Of a stretch of 64,000 nucleotides of DNA, positions 1-22,238 are shown piece by piece. Each line of letters opens with the position of its first letter. Position 1 is the stretch's first letter. The DNA comes from Cladochytrium replicatum (lineage: Eukaryota > Chytridiomycota > Chytridiomycetes > Cladochytriales > Cladochytriaceae), in the NCBI GenBank assembly GCA_025526935.1, contig JAHLKD010000011.1, forward strand, positions 1 through 64,000. The letters are read 5' to 3'. The notes below the pieces were generated by a model. The model was not told the origin of the DNA and did not search any database. It was given only the letters and a program-made list of their open reading frames with translations. A program made the position numbers and the translations under genes.

Positions 1-95
1 TAACTAACCCTAACTAACCCTAACTAACCCTAACTAACCCTAACTAACCCTAACTAACCCTAACTAACCCTAACTAACCCTAACTAACCCTAACC
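1..95. repeat. Telomere tract, 10-nt unit TAACTAACCC
   Basis: Nine perfect copies of TAACTAACCC fill bases 1-90, followed by a partial copy (TAACC) before unrelated AT-rich DNA. The C-rich strand reads 5' to 3' from the first base, as expected for the left end of a chromosome, so the window starts at a true chromosome end. The G strand is TTAGTTAGGG, which differs from the usual fungal TTAGGG. No degenerate or TTAGGG-only copies are interspersed. Confidence 0.95.
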
Positions 96-780
96 ATTTT
101 TCATCCAATATCTTTCATTTCGTAACCTGTCTATCGTATACTCGTTAATGTTCTTTCACAATTGCCAATCATTATTTTGTACGATTGCAAATTTCTATTG
201 TAATCTATGAATTGTTCACCTTCCTATGTTAATGGTTGATTGTTTATCATTAACTATTGATTTCCATTTTTCATCCATTATCTTTCATTTCGTAAACAGT
301 CTATCGTTTACTCTTTAGTGTTCTTTCACAATTGCCAATCATTATTTTGTGCTATTTCAATTGTCTATTGTAATCTATGAATTTTGCACCTTCCTATGTA
401 ATGGTTCATTTTTCATCATTAACTATTGATTTCTATTTTTCCTCTGTTTTCGTTAGTCTTGGGAACTATCGGTTATTTGTTTGTTTATGTTGTTTTGTGG
501 TTACTATGCATTATTTTGTGCCTTTTCAGCTGCCAATTCTAATCTATTAATTGTTCAGTCTTCTTTGTTAATTGTTCATTGTTCCTCATTAACTGTTAAT
601 TTTTTCCATTATTTAGCTTCACTACGTTAACTATCCGTTATTAATTCTATGGTTTTCCATTATTTGCTTTTGCTTCTTTCACTCTCTATAATGAATCCTT
701 GAAAGTTCCTGATTGATTGTTACCGTGCAGGTGTTGAAATTCCTTACCCCTTTAGAAGTACATAATCTCCTAGCTTAATT
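95..780. repeat. AT-rich subtelomeric satellite, period about 170 bp
   Basis: A block starting CATTTTTCATCCAATATC at base 95 recurs at about 265 with very few changes, and again in increasingly diverged form at about 434 and 603. Internal markers such as AATTGCCAATCATTATTTTG (near 158 and 328) keep the same spacing. The copies decay with distance from the telomere. No coding potential is seen. Confidence 0.8.
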
Positions 781-3483
781 ATTATTGACAAGTGTCTACC
801 ACAACCCCGTCTATTAATGTACCACTTTAGTTTATGGATTGTTCCTTGTCAAATTTTAACTGTTCACAGTTAATGGTCCATTGTGTGCACTTACGAGTGG
901 TAGCTCACAGTTGTTTCTCTTACAGGTTTGTCAATAGACTCAATACCACCATAGTTGTACCTGTCCTTTACAACCAGTGATGCCATTAACTGGTAGTTGC
1001 ACTTAGTTGTGTTCAGGTACCTGTCCAAGCACCTCAAGTTGTTCCCATTGGCCAGTATAGCAATACCACCGTAGCAGTACTTTAAGACCATCAATTCCTG
1101 ATACGGGTGTGTTAACACTTTGGTAACTGTACTGATCTGCTGCCACAATTTTTTCCAGTAAGTGGTATGGCAACACTGCTGTAGTGGTACTGGTCCTTTA
1201 TCATAATTGATTCTACTTACCTGTATTCACCCATTTCTGTGTCATTGTACGGGTCCTACCACCCAGTCGGGTCCCTTTACTAGTACATTACCACCGTCTT
1301 GTCAATACTGGTCCCTCACTGTTGATTGATGTGACTTACCTGTAGTGCCCTACGGAGGTGTCTGCATGACAGTGCTTCAACCCTGTCATTACGTTTCACT
1401 GGTAGGTTCCCACAGCTGTGTTTGTACCATTCTGCACATACTGTAGCCCTACTTACTGGTAGTTGCCCACAGACATGTGTAAGTTCAGGTCAATGCCCAC
1501 CAGTTCCTCTACACCGCCACTTCCATAGTCCCATTGCGCCTTTCATTGCTGCAACTTCACATTAACCACTTTAGCACACTGTAACTGATCCTTGATAATG
1601 CTAACCACTTAAGTTGGATTACCTGCGTTATTTAGGTATATTGCAACACACTTGTGAAGAAGTACTGGTACTTGACCCACTCTAGGGTAGTACTGAAAGA
1701 GTTCTTTCTTCACGTGTCAACTGGAACATTATCGTTTGCTAAGCTGGAATGGTGTGAAAGAATTGAGATTGATTTGTTTAAGATTTGAGATAACAGAAAC
1801 TGAAGAAACAAGAGGGAAAAAAAGGTTAAAAGAAGTCAATTGATAAAATTTGTAAAACTTTGGCGTTTTCCAGAAATGTTTCAAGAATAGGAAATGTAAA
1901 GAATAAACAATTGTAAGTGGTAAAGTAATCAATTCCAAAACATTCTTGAAGAATATTTTTCCAAAACTAACAACAAGAAGAGTTTCAGGTGGTATTTAGT
2001 CCAAAAGGAGAAGCAATTCTAGATGAAGTGTAACAGGTGTAAGGAGAATCCTTACATCATTGCTTCCTTGGTGGTGAAGTTATACTTCAAGAAGAAAGAA
2101 GCTTGGGGGTGTTTGAAGTAGGGGCACCGGGATGCAGAACATGGTAAGTTTCCAGAAGAGAGTCGAGATGGAGATTGAAGAGGCAAGTTCCTAGGAGTTT
2201 GCTGAATCAGGTTTATCTTTCCATTTGATCAATTAGCGAGGTGGAAAATGAGGAAGACAGGAGATGGTGATGAGCTATTTGGGTTCAGCAACGTCGAGAA
2301 CAACATCGGTCGGATCAAATGTAGAAGATGGTTAGACCAATTTGGTGCAAATTTCCCACGTTTCAAAAACCTCGAGAAGACTGACTTACATGGAAGACTG
2401 GGTGGGTTGCATTTGATCAGTGAAGTCGAGTTTGTAGGCGAGATCGTCGATTTTTCAGAGAGCTGGGCCGGGCCCTAATTTCTTGTCCGCTAGCTTCTTG
2501 TTTGATTTGGTTTTGACATTAGTTGCAATGAGCGAAACTTTTGTTACCTATTTTGTATTTAGGAGCGGGACGGCGATGATGATCGGCATATTCCTTCTGA
2601 GACTGTTGAGCGAGTCAAATTTGTGCGAGGAGTTCGTCGTGGATTGCTTTGATCTGTTCTACTAGAGGCTATCTATATAGGCACAATGGAGAACTTGAGC
2701 CGGAAAGCTGAAAATCTACTGCTGGCCAATTTTGCTAGAGACTGGGGTTGTTGGAGAAGTGAACTCCCTTGCGTCTCTGGGGAAACGTTAGAAACATTTC
2801 CATTTTTCATATATTTTCGTTTTTTTACGTTTGGAGATTAGGACAGCAGCGAGATGAGCAGGACAGAGCGATTTTTAACACAAAAATTGATCTCCTAGCG
2901 ATTTCTAGCATTTATCTTTGGGTGCCACACTTTACTACAAATAGTTAGTGAGGATGAGGCATTGAAGGTGGATTGATGGATGGATTGAGGATTTCTGGAA
3001 GCGTGTCCGGTCCCCTGTCATTACCAAGCCACTTGAAGCTGGGGCTGGTGAACTATAGGCTTGAAAAATAACGACATTGAAGTGCAGATGTCTATAACGT
3101 GCAACCATCGTATGTTACTAGCAGACTCTCCCGCATGTTAGATGTTAGAAGACACATTTTTCCATATTTAAGATGCTGCTCCATAGAGCGAAGCTTCCGG
3201 TAGCAAAGTGATTTTCAGCATCGGATTGCTACCAACAGTCTATTTCCACGTGCAATCATATCTCACCTCTCAACACTGTTGGATCTGATTTCGCCCCCTG
3301 AAGCAATCCCTATTGTACTGTGATCTACCTATGCTCTATTTTCACGTGGAAACTTTTCACACACTCCTACTCTGTGATATGTTTTCACACGCTCCAAATC
3401 ACCGCCAACTCTTTATTAACTAGCGCTCTGCCCCTGTCCAACTTTCTCCAGCAGAAGCATTTGTGTATTCGTCAAGAACAACA
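781..3483. other. Gene-poor subtelomeric stretch
   Basis: Between about 880 and 1720 the sequence contains loosely repeated short phrases (variants of ACTGGTAGTTGC and TACCACCGTAG), which look like a strongly decayed repeat. From 1730 to 3480 only short open frames occur (for example 2248-2478 and 2483-2665). They have no recognisable domain and no convincing splice partners. I see no supportable gene here. Confidence 0.5.
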
Positions 3484-6400
3484 ATGGGAGACGCAAGACA
3501 ACAGCCTAGGATCGATACTGGATCCATTGAGACACGGACCGGTGATCAGCCGCCCATGACAGATCTGTTACCTACCCCGCTGTCTGGCCAACCTGCACAC
3601 CAGCAAGACATTGACATGGACGGACGCGAGCGTGATCTTCCCGGTAATATAATCTATGCTGAGTCTTTCCATGTCCGAGTTTGCTGACATCGCATCCAAT
3701 TCTATCATCTGCCGAGCCAGTGCGGCCCGTTCATGAGCATAGTCCACGCACGTCACAGGATGTAGAGTCCCGGCCAAAAGGCATGTTGAGTGTGAACTGC
3801 TATGGTTGATCTGGATTTCCTGACACCATTTCCAATTTCATCGTTTGCAGAGCCAGAGCAGCTAAAAGGGGGGGACGTTGCAAGTCTGTCACCCAGTCTA
3901 ATAATGACAGCTGCAGGCATGATGAGGGTGAACCTCTATGACTGATCTGGATACCCTAACACCTTGTCAAATTTCATCGTTTGCAGAGCCAGAGCAGCTA
4001 AGTCAGGAGGAAGTTGCAAACCCGTCATCCAATTTAAGAATGAGCAACGAAGGCAAGACAAGTACACTTAACGTTTATTGCACTGATTTATATGCAGATC
4101 AGCAAAATCAGCCGCCCTCTCGGAAAAATGAGCCTCCTTCTGAGCAAACTGTTCAACATCGGAGAAGGTAAGATGAACATGCTTACCAGGTATACCTCCG
4201 CTGAACGGAGTTTACCTGTATGTCTAGATTGCCAACCAATCACTTTGCCTCAAAAGTGGCCATTCAATATCGAGTGGACGTGGAGAAACACCAGATTCCA
4301 AGCACCATTTACAATGCTTTCCTGGAAATAAACAATGGCTTGAAAGATCCGGCTAGATTTGGTAATTTTGCTTCCACCTACTTGTTGAGATCAAGTAGCA
4401 CTCAGAAACCACTGCTTTCAGGCTACTGCGTCAGCGGCATCGTAAGAGCCTTGAGACGTTTTGTTCGGAAGGTGGAAATACTTCCCACTCGGGCCCCTTC
4501 TGGGTCATCAACAGAAGTCCCTGTCGAGGTTCACCCGCAAGTGATCTTCGACCTACCTCACCATGTTCTGGACTTCACCCCAGCGGGACCCAGCAAAAAA
4601 CATGGACGGGATGACGATGCTGGTCAGGCAGGACCACCTTCCTCATCAAAGCGGACCAAACCTACACTTGACCAAAAAGGTGCCTCTGTTAGGACGGAAA
4701 CCCTAGCCAAGAAAAGCTCCGCTGCTCTTTCTGCTCGGACTGCTTTACCTGCTCCACCTGCTGGGGCTTCTCAATCTGCTCCACCTACTCAGCCTGGTCT
4801 TGAGAGTCCTTCTGAGAATGAAAAATGGTCTGATGAGGAAGAAGATCTGCCACCTCCAACGCCGGCTTGGCGTAAGTCAATACAAGGACAGGATACAGGT
4901 AGCCCGGGCGAGCGAGTTGTTTACTTGGAATGATACTGATCATTTGGTATTGGAATAGGTGCTACTAGCCAGGAGGACAGTCGGGTTCCGTACACCTTCT
5001 TGATCGCCAAAGTCATGAACCCCCTCTTACCTTCCTCTTCCATTGTGCGTCCATCAACAGCCATCTTGATTAGACTGGCCAATCAATATCTTCTGACGCC
5101 AGAGAGGGTCCGCCTAGAGAACCAGATTGCCGGCCTTGACAAAGTGGTCCTTGCTCCTGACCCCCGCCTGGTCTCCATGTCGCGACCCAAAGGACCTTTC
5201 GCTCCCTACGAGATCAGGAAGTGGGCTTTGGAACATGGCCCTGTATTGTGGGCCATAGATCTCCTCTCCACCCTGCGGGAAGCAAATCCTGCAACATGGG
5301 ATCCACCGGACTCAATTGGCACCACGTCGAACAGGAGTAACGTAGAACTTCGGGCGGAGACAAGACTTGGATTCCACAAAGAAATGGTGGACCTGTTGAC
5401 AAGGAATCAATTCATGGTTCCACCATATCTCCCACCAGGTTATTCTGTTGATAGTATCCATATGGAGCTGGACGAGGCAATGGTGAGGCGCTCTGCCTAT
5501 TTGACTTCTCAGTACCCCCGGATCATCCAAGGAGTAAGGGCATACAGGTTTGCAGAGGTAAGGCGGTGTTAGCCTACCCTCTACATATCCTCCTTTGACT
5601 AAAAATCCCCTCTTCGACACAGAGGCTTCTGATGGTCGATTCGTTCATAACATACTTTCGCCTATCCAAACGCCTGTGCGCGGACAAGGGTGTCAGCATC
5701 GAAAACCCTCCCTCCCAACGACTGACTAATCCTCGATACACTGAGCGTCTACACGCCGGAGAATTTTCGTTCCCTGGCGTTTTACATGATGCGGGGTTCT
5801 TCAAATCAGTCTTTTGCAACGTTCGTGCGAGTGGCGGAGGCCGTGTAAACGGACTTGTGTCTGTTTTCCGCAAATCACTGTTACAACGAATTGCCCATGT
5901 AAAAGGGAGGAGAGCCAGGCGTGGCGAGATGAAGGTATTTCCCCTAACTAACACGGTTCACAGTCGTCATGGCTTGCTTATCAAACCTTCGTTGAACAAG
6001 GAGTACCTGATTGCGGGAAGGCGGTTGACGGCGTTGCTTCGCATTTTGGGGCCGGGGGTTTTGGCGATGGACCTCAGCAGTGTTAGCATCTCTGATAGTG
6101 TGATCTACAAAAGTGATGACTCCTTGGAGCGGATGCTGCAGGCCTTGGAGACAATCACCAGGGATAGCCAGTTATCAATGGCGGACCTCTATCCAGCACT
6201 GTCACCGGAGATAGTCCTTCGGCACCTATTCACATACACATATTCCGTTCTGGACTTTGTGTTCCATGTAGGTCCTGACGATTACCCCGCTGTGGGTACC
6301 ACTGATTTCCAAGTAGATGGGATGGCGGGTCTTGATCAAGTCATTCCAGTAGAGCTGCTCAACATTCTCACCCAAGGTGTTCTAACGGACCGCGACATGA

Positions 6401-6576
6401 GCATGTGCTTGCTCAGATCTGATGGAACAGAGGAGATTGACACTTCCACACCATTCACGAAGAGCATTGACCGGCTTGATCTACACGATGTTATAGACCT
6501 TGTATCAACCTTTCCACTACCCCAAACACCCCGTGGAGAATCTCCGCCATCCCTTGAGCAATCCCCGTCACTGTAG
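3484..6576 (+). CDS. Unrecognised 872-aa subtelomeric protein
   Basis: Eight exons can be chained with consistent phase: 3484-3643, 3721-3780, 3851-3916, 3987-4052, 4098-4167, 4228-4871, 4959-5557 and 5623-6576. They total 2619 nt, exactly 873 codons. I do not recognise a family. The N terminus is polar and low in complexity. A Pro/Ser/Lys-rich linker (about residues 220-355, including GPSKKHGRDDD and SSSKRTKPT) separates a small globular segment from a larger C-terminal part with mixed helix-like content. The introns after exons 2, 3 and 4 use GC rather than GT donors, and exons 3 and 4 with their upstream introns are near duplicates (both begin EPEQL). It is in the same orientation as the dioxygenase gene downstream, across the 171-bp array. 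Location suggests it belongs to the same subtelomeric unit; function is unknown. Confidence 0.6.
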
Positions 6577-6859
6577 CCACGGCCCCTGTTTGGTTTTGTG
6601 ATTGACATTTTCTTTGAGTGATGGTTTAATAAACCAAAGTAGTTGATTCCATACCAGGGCCCCTGTCGTTGCGATCCCTAGCTATTTCTTCTAAACATGT
6701 TACTTGGCCCTAGGCTAAAGCACATCTTGTGAGTGAGAGTGCTAGTCCCGAGCCCTGACACCCAGATTCGCCAGGTACATACCTGGTAAAAAATAACCTG
6801 ACCTCTGGTTGGTTTGGAGCAGGAAGATATTTGTACCATGTTTGCTGATTCATTGCGCC
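6577..6859. other. 3' flank of the 872-aa gene
   Basis: A short spacer after the TAG stop that leads into the repeat array. It contains AATAAA-like A/T-rich words near 6628-6650 that could serve as a polyadenylation region. No gene is seen. Confidence 0.4.
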
Positions 6860-9200
6860 GAGCTCTCTACTTCTTCTATCTGTATGAAGTGCAATTCGCG
6901 CGCCTATCTGTATGAAGTGCAACTCGCGCGCCCGTGCGTGGTTGACCGGGAAACCGACCCCCAAGTTTTGCTCGGCAGTAAGTAGGTGGTTGGGAAATTC
7001 GTGAACCTTCAAGATCGAGGTTCCGATCTGAACCTCCAAGAGCTAGAATCGTGCGACCCCGGGGAGTTGGAGAAGGAACTGACCTTGCCCGCTGGCCAGA
7101 CTCAGTGTACCAACAGCGGGGTACGTCTTCACTCGAGCTTGTATGAGGTGCTACTCGCGCTCGGGTGGCTGAGCGGGAATCCAACTCCAAAGTTTGCAGT
7201 TTGCTAGGAACGTACCTCAAAAAATTACGTGACCCCAGCGGTAGGATCGGTTACGCATCTGTACACGCTCGCCAGACTCGGGATACCAACATCGATGTAC
7301 TTCTTGTGGGTATGGTATCACGTGACCTTGGATCGAGGTACAGATCTGGACCTCGAATAGCTAAAATCATGTGACCCCGGGGCAAGAGAGGTCCAAACCA
7401 CAAGACGTTTTTAGCTTGGTTATTAAACCCAGCGGTGTACTTCTTCTGTTCGGCTTGTATGGGGTGCCAGTCGCGCGCGAGCTCGCTTGAGCCGGAAACC
7501 AACTCCAAAGTTTGCGAGGTACGGACCTCGAAAAATCACGTGACCCCCGGAGTGGGATCCAGTACGGATTCTTACCTGCTCGCCAGACTCGGTATACCAA
7601 AAGTGGCCTTCTTCATCTATTTGGCTTGTATGGGGTGCCAGTCGCGCGCGAGCGCGGTTGAGCCGGAAACCAACTCCAAAGTTTGCGAGGTACGGACCTC
7701 GAAAAATCACGTGACCCCCGGAGTGGGATCCAGTACGGATTCTTACCTTCTCGCCAGACTCGGTATACCAAAAGTGGCCTTCTTCATCTATTCGGCTTGT
7801 ATGGGGTGCCAGGCGCGCGCGGGCGTGGTTGAGCCGGAAACCAACTCCAAAGTTTGCGAGGTACGGACCTCGAAAAATCACGTGACCGTCGGGTATACCA
7901 ACATCGATGTACTTCTATTCCGCTTGTATGAGGCGCTACTCGCATGCGGGTATGGTATCACGTAACCCTTGGGATCGAGGTACAGATCTGGACCTCGAGT
8001 AGCTAAACTCACGGCCCCTGGGGTGGGATCGGGTACGGATTCTTACCTGCTCGCCAGACTCGGTATACCAACATCGATGTACTTCTATTCCGCTTGTATG
8101 AGGCGCTACTCGCATGCGGGTGTGGTATCACGTAACCCTTGGGATCGAGGTACAGATCTGGACCTCGAGTAGCTAAACTCACGCGACCCCTGGGGTAGGA
8201 TCGGGTACGGATTCTTACCTGCTCGCCAGACTCGGTATGCCCCCATCGATGTACTTCTATTCCGCTTGTATGAGGCGCTACTCGCATGCGGGTATGGTAT
8301 CACGTAACCCTTGGGATCGAGGTACAGATCTGGACCTCGAATAGCTAAAATCACGCGACCCCTGGGGTAATCGGGTACGGATTCTTACTTGCTCGCCAGA
8401 CTCGGTATGCCCCCATCGATGTACTTCTATTCCGCTTTTATGAGGCGCTACTAGCATGCGGGTATGGTATCACGTAACCCTTGGGATCGAGGTACAGATC
8501 TGGACCTCGAGTAGCTAAACTCACGCGACCCCTGGGGTAGGATCGGGTACGGATTCTTACCTGCTCGCCAGACTCGGTATACCAACATCGATGTGCTTCT
8601 ATTCCGCTTGTATGACGCGCTACTCGCCTGCGGGTGTGGTATCACGTAACCCTTGGGATCGAGGTACAGATCTGGACCTCGAATAGCTAAAATCACGCGA
8701 CCCCTGGGGTAATCGGGTACGGATTCTTACCTGCTCGCCAGACTCGGTATGCCCCCATCGATGTACTTCTATTCCGCTTGTATGAGGCGCTACTCGCATG
8801 CGGGTATGGTATCACGTTAACTTTTGGGATCGAGGTACAGATCTGGACCTCGAGTAGCTAAACTCACGCGACCCCTGGGGTAGGATCGGGTACGGATTCT
8901 TACCTGCTCGCCAGACTCGGTATACCAACATCGATGTGCTTCTATTCCGCTTGTATGACGCGCTACTCGCCTGCGGGTGTGGTATCACGTAACCCTTGGG
9001 ATCGAGGTACAGATCTGGACCTCGAGTAGCTAAACTCACGCGACCCCTGGGGTAGGATCGGGTACGGATTCTTACCTGCTCGCCAGACTCGGTATACCAA
9101 AAGTGGCCTTCTTCATCTATTTGGCTTGTATGGGGTGCCAGTCGCGCGCGAGCGCGGTTGAGCCGGAAACCAACTCCAAAGTTTGCGAGGTACGGACCTC
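6860..9200. repeat. GC-rich tandem array, period about 171 bp
   Basis: The phrase CGGATTCTTACCTGCTCGCC or a close variant recurs at about 7566, 7737, 8037, 8209, 8379, 8551, 8721, 8894 and 9065. Spacings are 170-173 bp except for one interval of about 300 bp that holds a partial unit. Two unit types alternate. One carries GAGGTACGGACCTCG plus CACGTGACC. The other carries GAGGTACAGATCTGGACCTC, a hairpin-capable near-palindrome. More diverged copies extend left to about 6860. Several long open frames cross the array, but they follow the repeat and show no protein signature, so I do not call them genes. Confidence 0.85.
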
Positions 9201-9341
9201 ACGAAGTCGCGTGACTCATAGTACCCGGTTGGAACCACTTTCCCGCGTGCAAGAGCAGGACAGAAGAACAGCTACTCCACATTGAAACTGCCGTGTTTCC
9301 TCTACATTCACCCGAACCAAATTAACTTCTACACTGCGCAG

Positions 9342-12300
9342 ATGCAATCGATGTCAGACCCTATCCATCTTCCGCGGACATTGCGCCGTTCTGAGTTGTC
9401 TGAGTCGGAATTGGTTCGCGGTTCAGTCTGAATCTGTCCGTCCTTTAACTGACCCTATCGTACAGGAGGGAAATTCCGTGCCTTTACTTGAAAAAGATTG
9501 CCTACTTCGTGCCATATCCACCCATTGTCGTGCAGCGTACGCGATGAAGTCCGTTCTCTCCCTTTATCTACAAAATACGGAAAAGTTTACAGAGCTTTCT
9601 CGAATTTGCCGTGGTCTTGTTCAGCTTCAAGAAGATGTTACTCTCCTGTCCGAAACTTTTCCTCAGATCATGGACGCCGCTTTCTGGACTTCGCTGTTTG
9701 GAGATACGCTTGAGACATTGAAAATGACGTGTAATTTACTGGGGCCCCTTGAGCAGGTCCCTCGCATTCCGGACAGGACTGTCGCAGATGCAATAAGAGT
9801 TCTTGAGGATATTGAAAGACAACACGGTGATATCTACCCCGAACCACAACCCTGCATACTGTATTCTAACTATGCTTATTTTTTATCTTGGTTCAGCGCG
9901 CCGTCAGTATCATTGTCAGGATGCCGCGGCCTGTTCACTCTCATCTCCAGAGCCCTCCACCTTTGATTCTCCCGAGTCAGCTGTCTCTGACCACATGGCT
10001 CATACTTCTGACCTCTCTACATTCTCTCTACCAGTTCCACATGTTTCTGGGCATCCTGGAGGAAAGGAGGGTGGCAGCGACGACACTAGTGAATTTATAA
10101 TGCAGGCTGACAACGAAGTGGAAATGGGTTACACCAGCGACGACGCAAGTGAACCAATCATGATGTCAGACAATGAAGTGGAAATGTCTAACCCACCCAG
10201 CGCAGCCGCCGTGCCTAAGAAAAGGAGGATGAACGCCAGACGCACCTCTCGTAGACTGAAGAAAAAGAAGGTTGTGTCAATCCCAGACCCTGATCATGAT
10301 TCACTGCTTTCTAACTGGCAAAACCGGGGGCAAGAAAAACCGCAATGGAATGAGGACCTGTCACTGTGGAGACGTCAGGCCAAAACTGCAGACCGGGTTA
10401 GTTCTAAGGCATGGAAGTATGCCCTGGACCTAGAGAGGATCAAGCTGGCTTTGGAGACTTTAGCAGAGGTATCAGTTAGTGACATTGAGTCTGATGCTGC
10501 CTTGACAGAAATTTCCGCTATGATGTCTCCGGATGGTCAGCAGGTATCTCAGCGTACCTTGATCTTGATTTTGAAGTTCGACCTTGATACTCTCGGCAGG
10601 TTTTGTTCCCAGGAGCAAGTAACCAACAGTTGCTGTTATCCAGCGTGTTGTGGGAGCGTCGATATGCAAAAATGTCAGATGAACTCCACTGCCTATCCCT
10701 GGTTCATTGCATAAGGTGTTACCTCGAATTCGCCAGGTCCGGAGTGGATACCCTGGAATACGCATTCAATGGAGAAGGTGGAGCCTTTCCGAATCCCTAT
10801 GACGCCTCTCAGTGGAGAGAATTTCGCCGTAACAGCCCGATCGTCTCCACGCTGGAAGAAATTTCAACCAAAGTGGTGTCCCACGGTCATGAGGCTGCCG
10901 GTGTTGCCCTGGAAGATGTGAAGGTCTTTCGCAATCCAAAGACACTTTTGAAAACGTTCCTGGACATTGTCAAACGTGGCTACTACACAGCCACTGTTGT
11001 TTCTGGGGTGGGATGGAATGGGTTGCATCATCTCAACAAACCCCTTCTGCGCAGTCTCGTCACCCTGCCGGGATATGGCACAGAGTTTGTGAATGAGCTC
11101 AAACAGCGTTATCGTACTTCCACCCGTTGGTTGGATGCAGGGTTTCTGAACGTCCGCATGGAGCAATCCAGTGAAAGGGTTAATATGATTTTTCCTTTCG
11201 TATGGGACCATTACCAACACTGTTTTTCAGACACAAGCGATTGATATGGAGGGGGTTACTGTCTTGGAACACTTGGGTTCGGAAATTGGTGCTTCCTGTG
11301 CTGCTGATTCTCCTACCTATCAGCATGCGTCTGGGTCACCGGCAGAGATGGGACACCAAGCAGTCCCAAGTTCCCTAGCGTTTCAAACACGAAAACCTTC
11401 GGTACCTTCGGTATGGGCTTTTTTCTAATCATTCTGTCATGAAACCCATCTCTATTTTTGACAAGCAGGAAAGTTTCAATTTTCAACGTGCCTGGGAGTT
11501 GGGAAACATAAAGTACTCAAAAAAGGTACCCCCGGCAGACTTAAGCCGTCCAAGGAGTGGTACTGACATGTTGACTTCATGAATATGCGCAGGCTTCCTG
11601 TCGATCCAAGTTTGAGCACCTTGCACATAAACTTGCAGCGGACAACGTCGTTCCAGCGATACCCCAGGCAGTGCTTGCAGCCCCGAGTACCTCTGTATGG
11701 AACATACTTTCAGTATGTCCCCCTATTAACTGTTTTTGCATTTACTCAGATTGATGTTGTTACCCCGGAACTGACCCCTGCACAACGACTCTTCTTCAGT
11801 ATCCCCTCGGCAACTGACCTATCTGTTGAGCGGCGAGATGCTCTTCTGAAGGATGTACGTGAGAGAACCCTGGAATTGCGCTTCCGGGTCAAGCTGCAGG
11901 ACCTCGCTTCTAGACCTACAGCCAGACAACCCAACACACACCTGAAACCACAACTCACAGCGGAAGAGGCGTATTTGCTCGACCTTAAGGAGGCAGAGGA
12001 CTACATTGATGTCACGTCGCGGATGGGGGATCACCGACCGCTTGCGCCTCTTCAGGGTGTCGACTGCACGGGCCGTAGATTGTTCTTTTGGGTTCCGAAC
12101 GCTGTTTCTGCTCTGGCACCGGGAATCACCAGCACCGTTGAAAAGTTCGTGGAAAAATATCCGCCTGTTAAGTCAGCAAAGGACAATCGGCATGTCAATT
12201 GGGATCTGCAACCCACTCACAACGGCGTTTACCACCTTGGTGTGTGGCAGCCAACGGGAGGTGCCCCTGGAGGTGACATCGGTACCTCCGCTGAAACATT

Positions 12301-12784
12301 CCCCGGCAGCAGCGGAAAAACAGATGCGGTTGTTGAGTTCTTACGCCACCAACATATTCTTGACCTCGCTGAGACTGTCCAGGCATTATTCAGGCGCCTT
12401 GACCCAGATATGGCGGGGCGGTACAGTGCGGCGATGGGGAGGCTGAACCCTAGCGGCAAATTACTCTGGGACAACCATACGAACAAGACTTTTGCAATGC
12501 TTGTGGTTGTTCTCAATCAATGGATAGTCCGACACCGGGATCTCAAGGACATTCCAGATGGTTGGTGTGCGATGGTGTGCTTTGGCAGATTCAAGGGTGG
12601 GAGGACCGTGCTTCCTGATCTCGGAGTTAAGATTCCTTTCAAGAGTGGTGACATTCTTTTCATCAGATCATGCGCCCTTGAACATATGCTGGAGAAGTGG
12701 GGAACTAGCCCACGCGAATTCCGGGTGTGCCTTGTATTCAAAATGCACAAAGGTGTCTTTTTAAACACAGAAGAAAACACTTAG
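9342..12784 (+). CDS. TET/JBP-like 2OG-Fe(II) dioxygenase, 1016 aa
   Basis: Eight exons chain in phase: 9342-9413, 9466-9826, 9897-10543, 10600-11178, 11231-11410, 11469-11525, 11593-11712 and 11750-12784. They total 3051 nt, giving 1016 residues. The last exon holds a double-stranded beta-helix oxygenase resembling fungal TET/JBP proteins. The iron ligands are H934 and D936 (motif RHRD) and H984 (in SCALEH). A GG-x5-LPDLG segment and GDILFIRS follow the first pair, and R997 is the expected 2-oxoglutarate-binding arginine. Known relatives oxidise 5-methylcytosine or thymine in DNA; which base this one uses cannot be told. The upstream 670 residues are unrecognised but include a basic bipartite-like nuclear signal (PKKRRMNARRTSRRLKKKK), so a nuclear role is likely. 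The seventh intron is only 37 bp. It converges on the helicase gene, with the 3' ends 160 bp apart. Confidence is high for the domain and moderate for the N-terminal exons. Confidence 0.8.
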
Positions 12785-12944
12785 TTGTGGAGGCAGTTAA
12801 ATATCGTGGACAATTTGCTTGGTCATTAAATACAGCTGTCTATATCTAACCTGATCCTCCTCTATTCTAAGCTTGTTATTGACATAGATCGCCACAGGGT
12901 AAATTACGATTTTGTTGAAATTCTACATTGCCACAGATAACAAT

Positions 12945-15900
12945 CTAACAGCCCTCCTCTGAAAGAAGTATATCGAACACCAGAACAAGTGCCCGACATA
13001 TATTCCCACCAGCTATGTTGCACTTGTTGCTAAAATCGTGAATACTGTAGGTCTGGATACCCCACTCAACCCAACTGTCTAACTGCCTCAAAGCATCTAC
13101 TACCTCTTGACTCCTATATCTCCGCTTCAGCCAGGACGAAACGTCATTACTCTTGGCGCTTTCGTAGTGGAGACGACAATAGCAGTGAAGAGCGGCTCGT
13201 TTATTGTCCGTGGTGCAGAACGGTTCGTTTGAGGAATGATGCTGTTGTGTCCGCCGCAGGAGACAGTAGATGCATAACTGGTTAGGTCGGAATTTTGCGA
13301 AGTTGTCTAACGCCTTCTTTGCAGCACAGTCAGACCGACGATGTCCCGGTTCTCCGCAGACCCAGCAACGATGGTCACGCCGTGTTGCTGAGGAACTTGC
13401 AACAGTCTGCACCGCATTCTGGCAACCACAGGGGAAACCTTGGAAAGTCTCACACACAATACACCTACTACGGTTGAAGATGCTATGGTATAGAGCTGTG
13501 AAGTCTCTCTTAAGGTGTGGGATGACTGAAGCTGTGGAGACAGCAGGTAATGGGTTTGCAGATGGCCGAAAGACCTTAGGGTGTGGATTTTGCTGTGACA
13601 GTGACAAACCCATATCTACCTGGAAATCATTAGGTTTGTGTTCTGTAGTAAAGGTCCTCCACTTTGACTGGGTGCTCCCAACATCCGCTGGAAGCCACTG
13701 AACTGAACCATCCTCCGGGTGTGACCAAGACCAATCTGACTTAACAGAGGAGTGCTGAAGCAACTACTTGAAAGATGATCAGGCGAAGTATAACATACAT
13801 GTCAAAACGGGGATCCAAACCTTTGGCCTTTTCAGAGACAGACCAGATGGATTCTCTTCATAATCCATCTGGTTCTTCATGGTGTATGAGCTAGAAGATG
13901 GACTCTCTTCATAATCCTTCTGGTTCTTCAAGGTGTATGAGCTGGAAGATGACCGTTGTTTGCCAAAATGATGGCCCGAGAATGAGTCTGAGTGCAAATT
14001 TTGCCAATAACCCTTAGTGGTTAACTTATTGTCTTTTCAACTAACACTTACCTGGAGATATGTGCCCCCTATTAGGTATGGGTTTGATCAGGAAGGGTCT
14101 TTCGTGATAAGTCCCTAAAGGCTGCGTTGCACCAGGAGGCCCATATAGTGGAGTAGGTGAGTCCCAGTAGTTTGGAGTTTGTGTCCTGATGATCCTCGGA
14201 GTTTCTGGAACGCGCGATACGTCCGATTGCGTAGAGGTGGTTGTGGAGGATGTGCTGCTAAAGAGGGTACCGCTGTATTGCTGACCAGGTGGAGTCTCCT
14301 GTTGCTGCCCCAATTTTAGGTAAAGGTTGGACTGTCCGCCACAGTTTCCGCACAGCTTCGCACAGGAATTGCGACACTCGGGTGCATTGGGGTTTCCGTC
14401 CAAGAATGTGATCTTTGCTCTGCGCAAGCATGAACTGGTTTGCATGTACTCCAGTAGTGCAGCTCGGTCGGGAGATAGTTCTTCTTCGGTGCGTACATGC
14501 ATAAACCCCTCATTCCGAATGAGGATCTCAATGCCAACTGAACCGTTTCTTGCAGCCCTCCCCCCCATCTGACTGAGCTCCATCATCCCAGAGCAACTGA
14601 CAATAACTACAAGGCCAACGTCGTCCACATTCAGAGCTGCACCCAAACCACTGGTTGCTATCATCACCCTTGACATGTCCGCCATTGCAGCAATAGGGTC
14701 GCGCCCCTGATCTAGGCCTTCCCAGCCTAGCCATCGACACAGATCCACATTTCTGTCCAGTTCTGACATTTTCGATCCATGATGACAGCACGGGTGCATG
14801 TTTGTCGGAACTGCTTCTTTGGCGCTGGGTCCTCCCAGAAGCAAACTCTTGATCTGAGCCTGTTGTTCTTCGTTGGCAATATATATGATGGTGCGCTGGC
14901 ATGTGGCCCGTACATACTCGCACACTTCCGCTAATGGCCAACTCTTAACAAAATATGCCAACTCGGGACGGTCGGTCGGAGACCTGCAAACGCTCAGCTC
15001 TCCACGGCCCAGGCCAACCTGTTGCTCGAATGCGGACTGGAGAACTACAGGCATGGTGGCTGTCATATACAAAAAGCGACAACTTCCGAGTGGTCGACTA
15101 GCATACTTTGACTTGTGTACAAATTCCCTGACGTTGGTCATGGCCTCACGGAAGTGACGTTGGGTGAGGAGAATATGACATTCGTCCAGTATCACTGTCC
15201 CCAGCCTCCCGTTCTCCCATATTTGGACCAATTCTGTGGAAAGCAGGCCGGGATTGTCAAGTTGCTCTACTTGACATAGCAGTAGCCCCGGATGACCAGC
15301 TATTGCGTTCAGCTTGTTCTTGTGGGCTTTCACTTCACTCCACAGGTAACAAGGAATCCGCAGCTCTTCCAGTCGCTTTCTGATCTCCGCTGCAACAGCT
15401 CGTAGGGGAGATATCAGCACATGCAGAACTGCTGTGTTCAACGCTGCCAGGATGGCCGGTACCACGGTCTTTCCAGACCCAGTTGGTGACACCAGTAGAG
15501 TATGTTTTTCACTCTTGCAGATGGCCTCTCTGATGGAATCTGATCTGAAGTGTGCATATCGGTTTCCAGTAAAAGTACGAAGTAGCTCCGTGGCTTGCAG
15601 AACAGTATTTGCCCTTGCTGCATCCTCCCCACTCGCTAGGAAATCTTCACGGAATGTGGCATGGACATTCACCGTCTCCAACACCTCCGACACAGTCAGG
15701 GTCCCCAACACAGTCTCCGTCTCTGATACCTTTGCCGTATCTCTTACTGTCTCAGATACATTGGACCTGTCCCCTGATCGGAGAACTGCCTCTGGAGATG
15801 TCACTGCTGGGACCAGTTGCTCGTGTTCCTGATCTGCTATCCCGCAACGTTGGAACCAGTGCTCACATATCCTCAGCCGCTCCGCTGCAACTACATCCAG

Positions 15901-18900
15901 AAGCTGAGGGATGCTTGAACCTGTTCGGTTGTAGATTGCCTCTGCTGTGTGTGACGAATGGCCCTCTCCAAGGTTCGCCATGTCCCCTTTCCTTAGCAAC
16001 GTGCTTACTTGTGCAGGCATTAGTCGGGAGTCAATCTGGGAAAAGTTGCTCGCAAATCTACGGTACTCGGCATATGTCACGCGCACCCCAAGAATGCTCT
16101 GGAAAGTCTCTGTGAGGGTAGTAGACAAATCTGAACATTCCAATGTCCCGTTCTTTCCCAGGAACAAGGATCGCCTACATTCTTCGGGGAATGTCTTTTT
16201 CTGCACCCACTTGAATGTACTGAACAGCAACCTCCGCACTATAAAGAGGTGGAAGATGAGCAGCCTCTCCAGTGACCTTGGAACAAAGCGCGGAACCACT
16301 GTCCGCTCCTCCTTTATCTGTTCTGTCTTGCACCGGTAGCTCACCAGCACCAGACGATCATTCTTATGATAAACAGAGCGAGGAACTGCAGAAGAATTGA
16401 CTGCATTCTGAGCAACTAGGTCCGTGAGACGAGGCGGGGCTCCACATCCAAGCAGAACCGCTGCTGCAATCTTCTTGTTCCATTCCAGCAGCTGTCCATG
16501 CTGCTGCCAGAGATCATGGTGATCCGTCACTGGCCCAATATTTCTAACCCAGGATGCCAATATGCCTCCCAAAGCTGGCTGCAGGTGCGTACTGGAGAGA
16601 GTTGTGTGTTGCGCCCACTCATAGTCTGACGCTGTCTCACATGTAACATCGGGAGCATTTTCTATGAGCCACGATAGAGTTAACCATGTCTCTTGATCTG
16701 GCTGGAGAGGATAAGCGATCTTCTTCATGAGTAGACTGAGGTCCCTGATTAAGGTACTGTAAGCATGCCCTATGGTGGTCATATTGAAGTATGTATCCTT
16801 CGCCAGCAGGTACGCACATGCCTGGGAGTCAAACTGCATGCGATTGGTGGCAATTGTCTGGCTGGCAACCTTTTTGATCCAAGCTAACGTTACCCCGATC
16901 CTCCCTGACATTGTGTGCCTATTGAAGCGAGAGGTAAAGTGTCCAATCTGCATTAAACGTTCTGGCTCCACACTTCCAGTTACTTTGCAATCCTGCCAAA
17001 ACCGGTGCAGACCTGTGACATACGCCCATCTGAGTAATGCAGCTCCGGTTCTGGACACGCTGTTGGCAGGTCTCCAGGCCCCCAGCACATCTCTCGAATC
17101 AATCACCCACCAGGTGAAAAGGGGATTGTTGAACACCTTTTCGGGGATGGTTGATATGACAGTTTCTGCTTGGAAGAGAGACTCTGTAACAGCAAGCAGA
17201 GCTGCAAAAAGTTCTTCTCCTGTCTCTGCCGCAGATCCAACAGGGAGAAGATGTGTTGGCCCCACCGGACTTTCCTGATCCTCGTCGCCTGACTCACTGG
17301 AGCTTTCTTCAGAGTCCACCTCGTCCTCATGATTGGTGTCGCCAGACAGCAGCTGTGCCACGTCTAGCCCCTGATCCCCTACTGGATCAAACAGTGGTAT
17401 TCCTGTTGGTTCTTCAGGTCCAGAGTTTCCAACCTTCTGCTTCAACATTCTTGCAAACTGCTCCAAAGATGCTCCCAATGAGCTGCTGATCTGCACAAAG
17501 GGTGTCTCTATAATGCGCTTCCACACCAAGATCGTCAGCCACAGAACACAGGTCCATGTCTGTGCATAGCGTGACAGTGTTGCGTCCCGAAGCTGTCGGA
17601 ATTTCTGCTTCTCGTTGACTTGCTGCTCCTGATCAAACCTGGGCTTCATGATTTCCTGCCTGACCATGAAGGGCATTCGCATGATCCGTGATTGCAGTGC
17701 CTTGTGGTAGGCAACCATAGTCTTCCCCAGCTCCTTGCGGTTGAACCCCAGGCCAATGTCCTGGTTTTGTTCCCCGACAACATCTTTCCACGTGATGCGC
17801 TCGTTGATCTTTTGGCCGCTCCTGTGCCTAGGATCCACATGGTGAAAGTCGCAACCAAGAATCCAGGGAGGAAGCTCTTCAGATAGCTTCAAGGCAGGGA
17901 CAGAGGTGAATGCGTCAGCAAGCAGCAACTGCAGGCTTGCCTTCTGCATTTCAGTGAGCTGCAAGGATGGATCAGGGGAATAGGGTGCCAGAGGAGCCAT
18001 TTGCACGACCCAGTAACCGTGAAGTCCATAGTACGGCATGACAATACTCTGGACTTTGACCTGCTTTGGAGAGGTACCTCTTGCTGCTGGATTGGACTTG
18101 CAACAATGCTTTTGAAAGGTAGATAAGGTGCCACACACATAGCCGCAGCCTCGGCACTGAAAACCATCCTGTACACAGACTCCTGGGATTGGGGTAAATG
18201 AGGCAAGCTTGTTGTTGTCTCTGTCTATACGCTCCAGAATGACCTTGTTGTTCCACAGCGGTGTAAGCTGGTTAACCACGTTTAGATTCAAAAGTGCTCT
18301 TGAAGCAATCAGGCGGGTGCTCCTGTCGACCTGACTGTGGTACTTTTGGACATGGGCCCCGCATGAAGACGCGTCCACGAGAATGCCACAGCTGATACAA
18401 ACCAGCACACCAAACTCTTCTGCTATGAAGAAATCCAAGGCTATGCCTGGAGGATAGGAAATGATAGAGGTGAGATGCTTTCAGCAGTCCTGATGAAGGA
18501 AGCTTACGCCTAAGGTTTCCTGTAGCTATGGCGCTCTGAATCAGAGGGTTGTTCACAGGGTTCTCATTGTGAAGGGGTGCTACACGTACGTTGGCGAGGT
18601 CCTCTTCGTAACTGTCATTGTTGAGGCTGTTCTTATCTCTCTTGACAGTGCCTTGCAGAATGCGAAGAACCATGTCAACCCCTTCTTGGCCAGCAGCCGG
18701 GAGGCCCGCAACCTCGAACGCGTCGCGTAGGAACTCCTCTGTATGAACTCTAGGATTGGTGCCCAACCCTTCCTTGGCGGGATGGGAAGCTCGACAATGC
18801 TTCCTCAAAGCATCTCTCTCCTTGTATTCCCTGTGGTCCTTGCCAGTGCAAAGCGTGCACACGAGCATGCCATCTTCCCTGGTGATCCACTCCATCCTGG

Positions 18901-18940
18901 GTTCCTTGATGCGGTTGCTCAGCTGGTCTAACATGGACAT
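12945..18940 (-). CDS. Telomere-linked RecQ-like helicase with zinc fingers, 1935 aa
   Basis: Four exons chain exactly: 18940-18508, 18446-14052, 13987-13799 and 13735-12945. The introns are 61, 64 and 63 bp, and 5808 nt gives 1935 residues. The N terminus has C2H2-like fingers (CTLC near residue 28, CISC near 161, CRGC near 241) as in fungal subtelomeric helicases. The SF2 core lies at about 1125-1480: motif I SPTGSGKT, motif II DECH (RecQ usually has DEAH), SAT-type TAT, and motif VI QMGGRAAR. The C terminus carries a CCHC zinc knuckle (CWVCGEPGHRRSDC, about residue 1795) followed by more Cys/His pairs. A further 5' exon, 19121-19031, joined across a 70-bp intron (18961-19030, acceptor GAG), would add 37 residues and keeps frame. 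It is transcribed toward the telomere. The reading frame is intact, so the gene may be active. Such helicases are typical of subtelomeric duplications, where they probably act in recombination or telomere maintenance. Confidence 0.88.
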
Positions 18941-19030
18941 GATCGAGATTGGCCCGGCTACTCAAAAAACATGAGCCCTTTAGTGAGAAAGGTCGAGATT
19001 GGGTATGTTCACATGTAGTGAGAAGCTCAC

Positions 19031-19289: not shown

Positions 19290-20265
19290 TGGCCAGGTCT
19301 TGCCCTGATAACCCCCGGGGTGGCAGAGAAGCTTGTTATCAAGGTGTATGGTTGGTGGAGATTTTGGACAAACAAATACAAAGAATCAGTTCTCTACACC
19401 AGTAGCATGCTCTAGCCCACGAAATCAAAGGAGTCTCTCCCAACAGCATCATCGCCTAACCCATGAAATGAAAAGACTTAGTGAAAAATCCACCTACAAG
19501 AGAGATTGAGATAGCATGAATTACAGTTGAAGCAGAATAAATTGCATCTGGAAGGTCCGTCCATGGTTAATAAAAATGGGTTGGACGGTCCATCCGCGCC
19601 TAATAAAAACGCGTTGGACGGTCCGTCCGCGCCTAATAAAAACGCGTTGGACGGTCCGTCCGTGGCTGATAAATTCGAGGTGGACGGTCCGTCCGCATTT
19701 AATAAATTTGCGTCGGACGGTCCGTCCGAATGTTATTAACATTCCGGCTTGGAATAACTGTTAGGTCTTGCCCTGATAACCCCCGGCGTGGCAGAGAAGC
19801 TTGTTATCAAGGTGTATGGTTGGTGGAGATTTTGGACAAACAAATACAAAGAATCAGTTCTCTATACCAGTAGCATGCTCTAGCCCACGAAATCAAAGGA
19901 GTCTCTCCCAACAGCATCATCGCCTAACCCATGAAATGAAAAGACTTAGTGAAAAACCCACCTACAAGAGAGATTGAGATAGCATGAATTACAGTTGAAG
20001 TAGAATAAATTGCATCTGGAAGGTCCGTCCATGGTTAATAAAAATGGGTTGGACGGTCCATCCGCGCCTAATAAAAACGCGTTGGACGGTCCATCCGCGC
20101 CTAATAAAAACGCGTTGGACGGTCCGTCCGTGACTAATAAAAACGCGTTGGACGGTCCGTCTGTGGCTAATAAATTCGAGGTGGACGGTCCGTCCGCATT
20201 TAATAAATTCGCGTCGGACGGTCCGTCCGAATGTTATTAACATTCCAGCTTGGAACAACTGTTAG
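19290..20265. repeat. Two tandem subtelomeric blocks with palindromic minisatellite
   Basis: Two copies of a block of about 480-500 bp lie head to tail (about 19290-19765 and 19766-20265). Each starts near GTCTTGCCCTGATAACCCC and ends in AACTGTTAG. Each ends with a 33-bp minisatellite whose core GGACGGTCCGTCC is an imperfect palindrome, with an AATAAAAACGCGTT spacer. The first array (about 19549-19733) has about six units and the second (about 20028-20228) about seven. Outside the minisatellite the copies differ by only a few bases, so the duplication is recent. Confidence 0.85.
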
Positions 20266-21845
20266 GCAACCATAGTCTTCCCCAGCTCCTTGCGGTCGAA
20301 CCCTAGGCCAATGTCCAGGTTTTGTTCCCCAACAATATCTTTCCACGTGATGCGCTCGTTGATCTTTTGGCCGCTCCTGTGCCTAGGATCCACATGGTGA
20401 AAGTCGCAACCAAGAATCCATGGAGGAAGCTCCTCAGATAGGCTCAAGGCAGGGACAGAGGTGAATGCATCAGCAAGCAGCATCTGCAGGCTTGCCTTCT
20501 GCATTTCAGTGAGCTGCAAGGATGGATCAGGGGAGTAGGGTGCCAGAGGAGCCATTTGCACGACCCAGTAACCGTGAAATCCATAGTACGGCATGACAAT
20601 ACTCTGGACTTTGACCTGCTTTGGAGAGGTACTTCTTGCTGCCGGATTGGACTTGCAACAATGCTTTTGAAAGGTAGATAAAGTGCGACACACATAGCTG
20701 CAGCGTCGGCACTGAAAACCATCCTGTACACAGACTCCTGGGATTGGGGTAAATGAGGCAAGCTTGTCGTTGTCTCTGTCTATATGCTCCAGAATGACCT
20801 TGTTGTTCCACAGCGGTGTAAGCTGGTTAACCACGTTTAGATTCAAAAGTGCTCTTGAAGCAACCAGGCGGGTGCTCCTGTCGACCTGACTGTGGTACTT
20901 TTGGACATGGGCCCCCCTGATGACGCGTCCACGAGAATGCCACAGCCGATTCAAACGAGCACACCAAACTCTTCTGCTACGAAGAAATCCAAGGCTATGC
21001 CTGGAGGATAGGAAATGATAGAGGTGAGATGCTTTCAGCAGTCCTGATGAAGGAAGCTTACGCCTAAGGTTTCCTGTAGCTATGGCGCTGTGAATCAGAG
21101 GGTTGTTCACAGGGTCCTCATTGTGAAGGGGTGCTACACGTACGTTGGCGAGGTCCTCTTCGTAACTGTCATTGTTGAGGCTATTCTTATCTCTCTTGAC
21201 AGTGCCTTGCAGAATGCGAAGAACCATGTCAACCCCTTCTTGGCCAGTAGCGGGGGGGCCCGCAACCTCAAACGCTTCACGTAGGAACTGCTCGGTATGA
21301 ACTCTAGGATTGGTGCCCAACCCTTCCTTGGCGGGATGGGAAGCTCGACAATGCTTCCTCAACGCATCTCTCTCCTTGTATTCCCTGTGGTCCTTGCCAG
21401 TGCAAAGCGTGCACACGAGCATGCCATCTTCCCTGGTGATTCACTCCATCCTGGGTTCCTTGATGCGGTTGCTTAGCTGGTCTAACATGGACATGATTGA
21501 GATTGGCCCAGCTACTCAGAAAACATGAGCCCTTTAGTTGAGAAAGGTCGAGATTGGGTATGTTCACATGTAGGGAGAAGCTCACCAGGGGCAGATTTAG
21601 GAGTGGTGGCAGTGATACCTGGTTGAACAAACTCATTGCAGTCCATTGCAGAAACATCACTGCTGCTAGATTGCATCTAACGGTAGGACCATGAGCACCT
21701 AGTGTATACTGTACCGTGTGAGAACATACTTCAGATTGTTGACTAGCTTTGACGAGATGGAAGTTGGACTAATAGCAGCGGTGGAAGCTGTGGTATGGAC
21801 GGAGAGGGAGTTGGGATCCACTATCTATAGCAGGAAGACCCTGTG
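20266..21845 (-). pseudogene. Truncated duplicate of the helicase 5' end
   Basis: This stretch matches about 17711-19290 at high identity, covering the helicase promoter side, first exon, first intron and the N-terminal zinc-finger part of exon 2. It stops abruptly within the ORF, at the word GCAACCATAG next to AACTGTTAG. A small indel near 20915-20925 puts the unspliced first intron in frame with what follows, so an apparent 386-codon ORF (20262-21422) reads through the intron. It lacks every helicase motif. It cannot encode an active helicase but could express a zinc-finger fragment. Confidence 0.85.
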
Positions 21846-22238
21846 GCCAACCCTCTAGTTTCCTAAAAAGGATATCCCCCGGCGTGGCAGAGAAGCTTGT
21901 TATCAAGATGTATGGTTGGTGGAGATTTTGGACAAACAAATACCAAGAATCAGTTCTCTACTCCAGTAGCATGCTCTAGCCCACGAAATCAAGGAGTCTC
22001 TCCCAACAGCATCACCGCTAGGCCCATGAAATGAAAAGACTTAGTGAAAAATCCACCTACAAGAGAGATTGAGGTAGCATGAATTACAGTTGAAGCAGAA
22101 TAAATTGCATCTGGAAGGTCCGTCCATGGTTAATAAAAATGGGTTGGACGGTCCGTCCACGCCAAACGTTGGACAGTCCGTCTGTGGCTAATAAATTCGC
22201 GTCGGATGGTCCGTCCGAATGTTGGAATAACTGTTAGG
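21846..22238. repeat. Third, degenerate minisatellite block
   Basis: A third copy of the flanking block, with its first bases replaced by CCTCTAGTTTCCTAAAAAGG. Its minisatellite is reduced to about three units (22118-22222). It again ends in GGAATAACTGTTAG, after which the sequence becomes unique. This marks the centromere-proximal edge of the subtelomeric repeat domain. Confidence 0.8.

Follow-up and report, generated by a model that had tools for sequence, protein, structure and literature searches.

A TET/JBP-type dioxygenase gene and a RecQ-like helicase gene face each other at one chromosome end of the chytrid Cladochytrium replicatum, and the question that this locus raises is whether they belong to a single selfish or telomere-maintenance unit, as the first-pass annotation of the sequence proposed. 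One genome was examined, the 50.5-Mb assembly of C. replicatum (198 contigs), a species that is also indicated by near-identical database proteins; "the window" is the 64-kb stretch at the start of contig 11 (C11), contigs are denoted by C and window positions by w. The two genes are indeed convergent, with their 3' ends (w12784 and w12945) 160 bp apart; satellites flank them on both sides (w7440–9100 and w19549–20229), and telomere repeats, (TAACTAACCC)n, fill w1–94 and place the pair at a chromosome end. Judged from the sequence, the block of TET gene and OrsD-RecQ-like helicase gene is part of a larger unit whose inner end is precise. We interpret this unit as mobile and as attaching, by its fixed inner end, to chromosome ends that recede, a reading to which we assign a probability of about 0.7, because the same end is found at many GG sites in one orientation and is accompanied by a variable, telomere-healed outer end and by nested truncation.

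Recurrence of the unit at contig ends

A six-frame search of the genome with the TET protein returned 49 matching pieces, nine of them full-length at 99–100% identity, and the corresponding helicase search gave 36 pieces at no fewer than 32 places (32 of 168 candidates scored). All helicase places but an interior one on C53 are near contig ends (31/32), as judged for C174 and C195 from their contig numbers, which mark them as small contigs. When the two lists were matched by hand, TET was found on the outer side at 21 of the 32 helicase places, in agreement with the proposal of one repeated unit of fixed orientation, TET outward, at many contig ends. On C47, TET lies about 6.5 kb from the helicase gene, as compared to the usual 1.3 kb. 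Helicase genes lacking the dioxygenase, which could have spoken against a unit, occur at 11 places, and at nine of these the outer side breaks off before TET would be reached: the unit is cut by telomere repeats on C61 (at w13128) and C50 (at w15779), older units are cut by the next unit on C46, C53 and C43, and the contig end is reached first on C126, C7, C147 and the right end of C66. The other two are C174 and C195. Dioxygenase pieces at interior loci are short relics, save for an older copy on C70 which is 87–97% identical to the window, in pieces. Chromosome-end copies are 98.4–99.96%, mostly >99.5%, identical to the window (main pieces, 20 fetched loci); those on C8, C80, C66, C76 and C168 have internal deletions.

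The fixed inner end

The inner end reads ...AACTGTTAGG, its last base being w19765. The 28-base end sequence AACATTCCGGCTTGGAATAACTGTTAGG has 185 copies in the genome (≤3 mismatches), as compared to none for a reversed-pattern control. Statements on these 185 ends rest on 96 junctions that were read, 80 of which were fetched from the first 100 listed (all exact matches), while 16 came from a search for a motif upstream of the end (≤2 mismatches; 20 loci and the window). All 16 occurrences of the upstream motif continue to (A/G)ACT(G/A)TTAGG and then diverge; since the last bases of the end were not used in finding them, they are free of end-pattern bias.

Flank clustering distinguished 90 different flanks among the 96 junctions, with five groups shared. 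The notion of a selfish element is thus supported, and is sharpened by the fixed inner end, the diversity of its junctions and the internally deleted copies. The same data bear on an alternative in which the unit is a Y'-like subtelomeric repeat, spread from end to end solely by homologous recombination or break-induced replication. Near-identical copies suggest exchange, as do the shared junction groups. Unit ends recur at constant spacing on C86 (~223–228 kb) and C53 (~127–131 kb), namely every 1061 and 1562 bases, which indicates that truncated units amplify locally in tandem; this too would be expected of a Y'-like repeat. Recombination would, however, carry flanks along, and a fixed end that stops at an identical last nucleotide next to unrelated flanks speaks against it as the sole mechanism; we regard this explanation as highly improbable.

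For 73 of the 80 fetched junctions, the contig end faced by the outer side is no more than 20 kb away, and for 61 no more than 10 kb. The seven distant ones comprise two on C1, three on C53 and one each on C104 and C115. Junction C1:74042 adjoins head-to-head telomere repeats (GGGTTAGTTA meeting CTAACCC) at about 73.7 kb, and the C53 junctions 124403 (−) and 127702 (+) belong to back-to-back units at about 124–128 kb. Both arrangements are probably end-to-end chromosome fusions, or misassemblies, and the three junctions at these apparent fusions are counted in favor of end attachment.

Target site and terminal hairpin

The target can be read where the flank is itself an older truncated unit, with the window copy as reference. 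This applies to 41 of the 96 junctions, representing 35 distinct sites. The bases just outside the join are GG at 31 of the 35 sites (background in w2764–19764, 6.2%) and AGG at 26 (background about 1.5%), with binomial P values of about 1e-33 and 4e-40, respectively, if sites are assumed to be independent. Flank positions +1 to +8 show no base preference. The roughly 14-fold excess of GG over background is a further argument against spread by recombination only.

A terminal hairpin is predicted for the end (z-score −3.9 as RNA, −3.5 as DNA), in which the final G or two of the unit would remain unpaired. The tip, GTTAGG, resembles the telomere G-strand. This resemblance is also central to another explanation, namely that linear copies of the unit outside the chromosomes are ligated by their telomere-like right end to broken chromosome ends, through microhomology end joining. 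The short terminal homology fits such a process, and in two cases (L039 and L073; the inner listed junction of C1 and of C46) the sequence runs on as TTAGG-GTTAGTT, as if telomerase had extended the right end. End joining should nevertheless yield right ends of variable length, whereas all of the upstream-motif junctions stop at the same base, and we consider it rather unlikely.

Variable outer end and deleted derivatives

Besides the window, telomere repeats join the unit at 12 places between w2764 and w16644 (Table 1). Re-measurement by exact identity shifts some of these joins by tens of bases, the joins being untidy, and the join on C8, which falls in satellite, could not be placed in this way. 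Eight fetched ends begin within the unit and have no telomere repeats (C52, C56, C58, C76, C192, C51, C102 and the right end of C11); these are either real ends or assembly breaks. In the telomere-capped C47, C9 and C16, 0.1 to 1.1 kb of other sequence precedes the unit-like sequence. Units are stacked head to tail in a single orientation, the older ones being truncated. Nine contigs (C168, C47, C52, C58, C46, C9, C16, C53 and C183) carry a shortened derivative with a direct junction of w9715 to w19229. It is 84–90% identical to the window in that part and has lost both genes while keeping the inner end, which fits an end that acts in cis and proteins that act in trans.

Proposed mode of attachment

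Under end attachment, a chromosome end that has lost its telomere would recede and expose a 3' strand ending in CC or CCT, which could pair with the GG-3' tip of the terminal hairpin and prime outward copying of the element. Incomplete copying, or later erosion, would produce a truncated outer end, to be healed by telomerase. The OrsD-RecQ-like protein may serve the element as a factor of its own for replication or attachment, and the TET/JBP enzyme may clear the element of cytosine methylation, which would otherwise silence and mutate it.

The TET gene contains introns at w9827–9896 and w11410–11468, identified from the sequence and the deposited models P0010 and P0011, which hold further introns. 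Since both are kept in long copies (C8, C93, C183), the template cannot have been a spliced mRNA. Open reading frames (ORFs) of the unit that were submitted to Pfam gave no match to reverse transcriptase (RT), transposase or Rep, and a genome scan with RVT_1 (150 of 469 candidates scored) placed none of the matches listed in the first 20 kb of C11. The lack of an RT in the unit and the retention of introns lead us to prefer, slightly, DNA over unspliced RNA as the template. RVT_1 matches are plentiful elsewhere in the genome, many of them interior and some near contig ends. A few RT matches are situated just inside inner ends of units (C57 8475–9212, C60 7093–7707, C93 202365–203075); they could be either older chromosome-end elements or ordinary retrotransposons, and an RT that acts in trans on the unit is thus conceivable.

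These observations have to be set against a retroelement of the Terminon or HeT-A kind, of which an unspliced plus-strand RNA would serve as template at the 3' end of the chromosome, either for telomerase or for a different RT supplied in trans. Penelope-like elements are known to contain introns, as reported in a 2003 paper, and to retain them on transposition, which would count for this alternative. Moreover, incomplete reverse transcription naturally yields variable outer ends, and the anatomy of Terminons, as far as portrayed in sections of PMC6431247, is similar, with 5'-truncation by telomeric repeats, head-to-tail arrays and a structured 3' end. The retroelement reading is at odds with the outcome of both RT searches, with the introns kept by the TET gene, and with the terminal bases of the unit, which are G-strand, whereas the repeats of Terminons are reverse-complement and so have the other sense. 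We see the retroelement as a possibility, with odds clearly short of even.

Proteins encoded by the unit

The open frame of the TET/JBP gene extends from w11567 to w12784 (+), with the dioxygenase domain at about w12353–12748. Its assignment to the TET/JBP family could be confirmed: the window protein contains a Tet_JBP domain (PF12851; E 3.8e-8) that at 33.2 bits falls just below the Pfam cut-off of 34.9 bits, which is reached by 15 of the 22 genomic matches. Putative Fe-binding residues, picked by eye from the alignment, are H323-x-D325, H373 and an Arg near position 386. In a protein database search of limited sensitivity, relatives outside Cladochytrium were found in Geranomyces variabilis only; the HxD...H...R site is kept in these relatives where the region is present, one having HHD for HRD with both ligands kept. 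Searches of PDB with single proteins gave no match, and a TET profile gave weak ones, the best being a glycine N-methyltransferase (E 0.19), with the Naegleria Tet-like dioxygenase at E 0.26. The AlphaFold model of the protein has a mean predicted local distance difference test score (pLDDT) of 32.

The helicase gene runs from w18961 to w14041, and its main frame of 1479 codons occupies w14041–18480 (−); the deposited model P0001 extends it to the zinc-knuckle ORF ending at w12945. OrsD (4e-12) and DEAD (3.9e-14) domains were identified, together with a profile match to RECQ1 structures (E 0.002); a match to TIGR01389 is partial and far under its cut-off. The protein database search, with its limited sensitivity, revealed no helicase relatives outside Cladochytrium. 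Protein P0007, encoded on a 6557-base contig, is a diverged relative (57% identity over the middle region) and suggests a second subfamily of the element.

Residues 667–836 of the helicase protein contain R670 ... K704 ... RR793 ... H827-x8-Y836, a series of motifs resembling that of a tyrosine recombinase. This block might in principle insert the unit at AGG in the manner of a Crypton, with later loss of the distal chromosome, and the order and spacing of the motifs from R670 to Y836 are compatible with such a role. The usual histidine of HxxR is absent, though, and about ten extra residues precede H827 when measured against the usual spacing; no tyrosine-recombinase profile matched in Pfam, PHROGs, NCBIfam or PDB, and the AlphaFold model of the middle region is unusable (mean pLDDT 30). 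Insertion with two ends and a target-site duplication was not seen among the junctions read, which show one fixed end only. Recombinase-mediated insertion thus appears improbable to us. A tentative variant of end attachment, which we would put at well under an even chance, is a class of end-extending elements lacking an RT, in which a RecQ helicase fused to a domain resembling a tyrosine recombinase brings in one DNA strand, the hairpinned GG-3' tip of which anneals to the receded chromosome 3' end, while TET keeps the element unmethylated.

CpG decay and selection

The observed/expected ratio of CpG is 0.61 in the unit (w9290–19520), as compared to 1.01 in the window at 24–64 kb. Changes private to one young copy comprise 81 C>T or G>A and 100 others; 49 of the 81 are at CpG, where 15% of C/G would be expected. 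The corresponding proportions at CpG are 60 of 101 in the older copy on C70 and 8 of 21 in an older copy in the window. C>T changes concentrated at CpG are the usual trace of deamination of 5-methylcytosine (5mC), suggesting that the unit is probably cytosine-methylated. The genome holds cytosine methyltransferase domains (five matching pieces) and MT-A70 domains (five pieces), so that a demethylating enzyme would have a use. As the decay is CpG-biased, a role of TET in protection from cytosine methylation seems to fit the evidence better than one in helicase-driven recombination, the coupling suggested by the first-pass annotation.

Young copies of the TET gene carry 11 synonymous and 19 nonsynonymous changes and one stop (9, 20.8 and 1.3 expected), those of the helicase gene 18, 55 and two (22.2, 49.4 and 3.4 expected), a neutral ratio such as would be seen if copies perish at their landing sites. 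A comparison of the window unit with an older copy yielded 17 synonymous and 23 nonsynonymous changes and two stops; the resulting pN/pS of about 0.39 points modestly to constraint in the lineage from which the copies stem.

Organization of the window

The features of the window are compiled in Table 1. The telomere repeat unit, here and at many other contig ends, is the 10-mer TTAGTTAGGG rather than TTAGGG. The 170-bp satellite was compared with copies at the left ends of C26, C6, C167, C87 and C100 and the right ends of C15, C12, C82 and C66; its inverted position looks as if the end had folded back, or had fused and then broken. The three adjacent ORFs of the outer part, which gave no match in Pfam, are possibly one spliced gene of the element. 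The satellite tract at w19549–20229, on the upstream side of the helicase gene, consists of 33-bp repeats built on the palindrome GGACGGTCCGTCC and has an iteron- or operator-like look. The alignment of the older unit at w20267–22217 ends at the equivalent of w19662. A scan of w1–23000 with Rfam, hammerhead included, gave no match up to E 1. Outside the unit, 87-bp repeats at w44229–44899 are, judged by eye, perhaps ankyrin-like coding repeats.

Table 1 Features of the unit and its surroundings (positions in the 64-kb window)
Feature	Position	Strand	Remarks
Telomere, (TAACTAACCC)n	1–94		Same repeat at many contig ends
170-bp subtelomeric satellite	94–602		Reversed with respect to the copies listed for left and right ends of other contigs
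Outer part of unit: three ORFs and satellites	2764–9282	+	Common to left end of C80 from w2764; partly on C193, C192, C70
Outer-part ORFs	4205–4933, 4940–5572, 5599–6576	+	Adjacent; shared with C80
171/172-bp satellites	7440–9100		In outer part of unit
TET/JBP dioxygenase gene	within 9286–12784	+	Open frame, Pfam, deposited models P0010 and P0011
CCHC zinc-knuckle ORF	12945–13763	−	Fused to helicase gene in deposited model P0001
OrsD and RecQ-like helicase, main exon	14041–18480	−	Pfam, structure profile
Helicase N-terminal exon	18272–18961	−	Deposited model P0001 starts here
33-bp tandem repeats with palindrome GGACGGTCCGTCC	19549–19728	+	Immediately inside inner end
Precise inner end AACATTCCGGCTTGGAATAACTGTTAGG	19738–19765	+	28 bases; predicted hairpin
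Older unit, only last ~0.5 kb left	19766–20266	+	Begins at equivalent of w19298
Older unit, ~95% identical, helicase N-terminus only	20267–22217	+	Cut at equivalent of w17712
Telomere-capped outer ends in other copies	2764, 7549, 9083, 9188, 10311, 11324, 11608, 12285, 12355, 13128, 15779, 16644

Points that weigh against end attachment

Several observations count against the proposed attachment to chromosome ends. Transposition was read from the sequence alone and never watched, and no enzyme for the joining step was identified. The GG preference is testable at only 41 of the 96 flanks, the remainder having no known pre-insertion sequence, and several target sites are within satellites, where placement is ambiguous. 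Four of the 35 sites do not have GG; three of these weigh less, because they occur in copies 85–88% identical to the window, for which the window copy is a poor guide. The 80 fetched junctions were chosen by the exact end pattern, so that copies stopping short would escape. Four distant junctions are without explanation: C1:76335 and C53:116290, which lie further inward on the contigs with the apparent fusions, and those on C104 and C115, whose copies are older, as their main pieces share only about 88–91% identity with the window. The older unit at w20267–22217 has no recognisable inner end of its own. Finally, the ratio of nonsynonymous to synonymous changes is neutral in young copies, which show no purifying selection.

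Relation to known elements and implications

A published account of this element was not found in the open-licence literature searched. Its organization suggests the known pattern of end attachment, as in HeT-A and Terminons, but with no RT found in it. According to portions of PMC6431247, Terminons of rotifers, which are Athena-type Penelope-like elements, are likewise large multi-ORF units of chromosome ends, 5'-truncated by telomeric repeats, arranged head to tail and provided with a structured 3' end with telomere-like bases; they possess an RT and bear reverse-complement telomere repeats. In contrast, the C. replicatum unit has no RT in the ORFs tested, although an even longer master unit is conceivable, and no hammerhead in the Rfam scan. 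It ends in TTAGG of the G-strand, with GG as the point of junction to non-telomeric DNA, and carries TET and OrsD-RecQ genes. HeT-A/TART and MoTeR/FoTeR, in the excerpts of PMC12857005, PMC5537684 and PMC8381367 that describe them, share the telomere-fixed orientation and the excess of truncated over full copies, but encode non-LTR (non-long terminal repeat) RTs. FoTeRs co-occur with telomere-linked helicases; there the helicase is a neighbour, whereas here it is inside the unit. In FoTeRs the 3' end is succeeded by TAACCC repeats, whereas none of the 96 flanks starts in this way (first 50 bases), and no poly(A) was found at the junction.

The yeast Y' element likewise has a RecQ-type helicase at chromosome ends; the precise end and the 90 distinct junctions set the present unit apart from it. 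Fungal telomere-linked helicases (tlh of S. pombe, UTASa/b of Ustilago, TLH of Magnaporthe) are also of RecQ type and located at chromosome ends, and that of Ustilago has an OrsD association, as outlined in part of PMC10532341, where no precise mobile end is mentioned; the helicase gene here has a TET partner and lies within a unit whose end is precise and transposition-like. TET/JBP genes are borne by DNA transposons as well (Kyakuja, Zisupton, Plavaka, EnSpm, Helitron and others), for which a function in countering methylation has been proposed in passages of PMC12730594. The carriers treated there are from Pucciniomycetes, Agaricomycetes and Pezizomycetes, chytrids not being mentioned in the text of that paper. 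The unit ORFs tested gave no transposase or Rep match.

The element would add a chytrid, and a different type of carrier, to the transposon-borne TET genes which Kojima 2025, in the part consulted, assigns to three lineages of Dikarya. To judge from the CpG bias of its decay, cytosine methylation may occur in a phylum which, in the section concerned of a 2026 review, is grouped with fungi of near-undetectable 5mC. It also touches the old question of why RecQ-type helicases occupy so many fungal telomeres. With a helicase gene inside a unit that has a transposition-like end and a telomere-like tip, the choice between selfish element and host tool becomes directly testable. If end attachment is true, "telomere-linked helicase" would designate a component of a selfish element and not a gene of the host, and if the more tentative class of end-extending elements lacking an RT exists, the telomere-linked helicases of other fungi would be relics or members of such elements.

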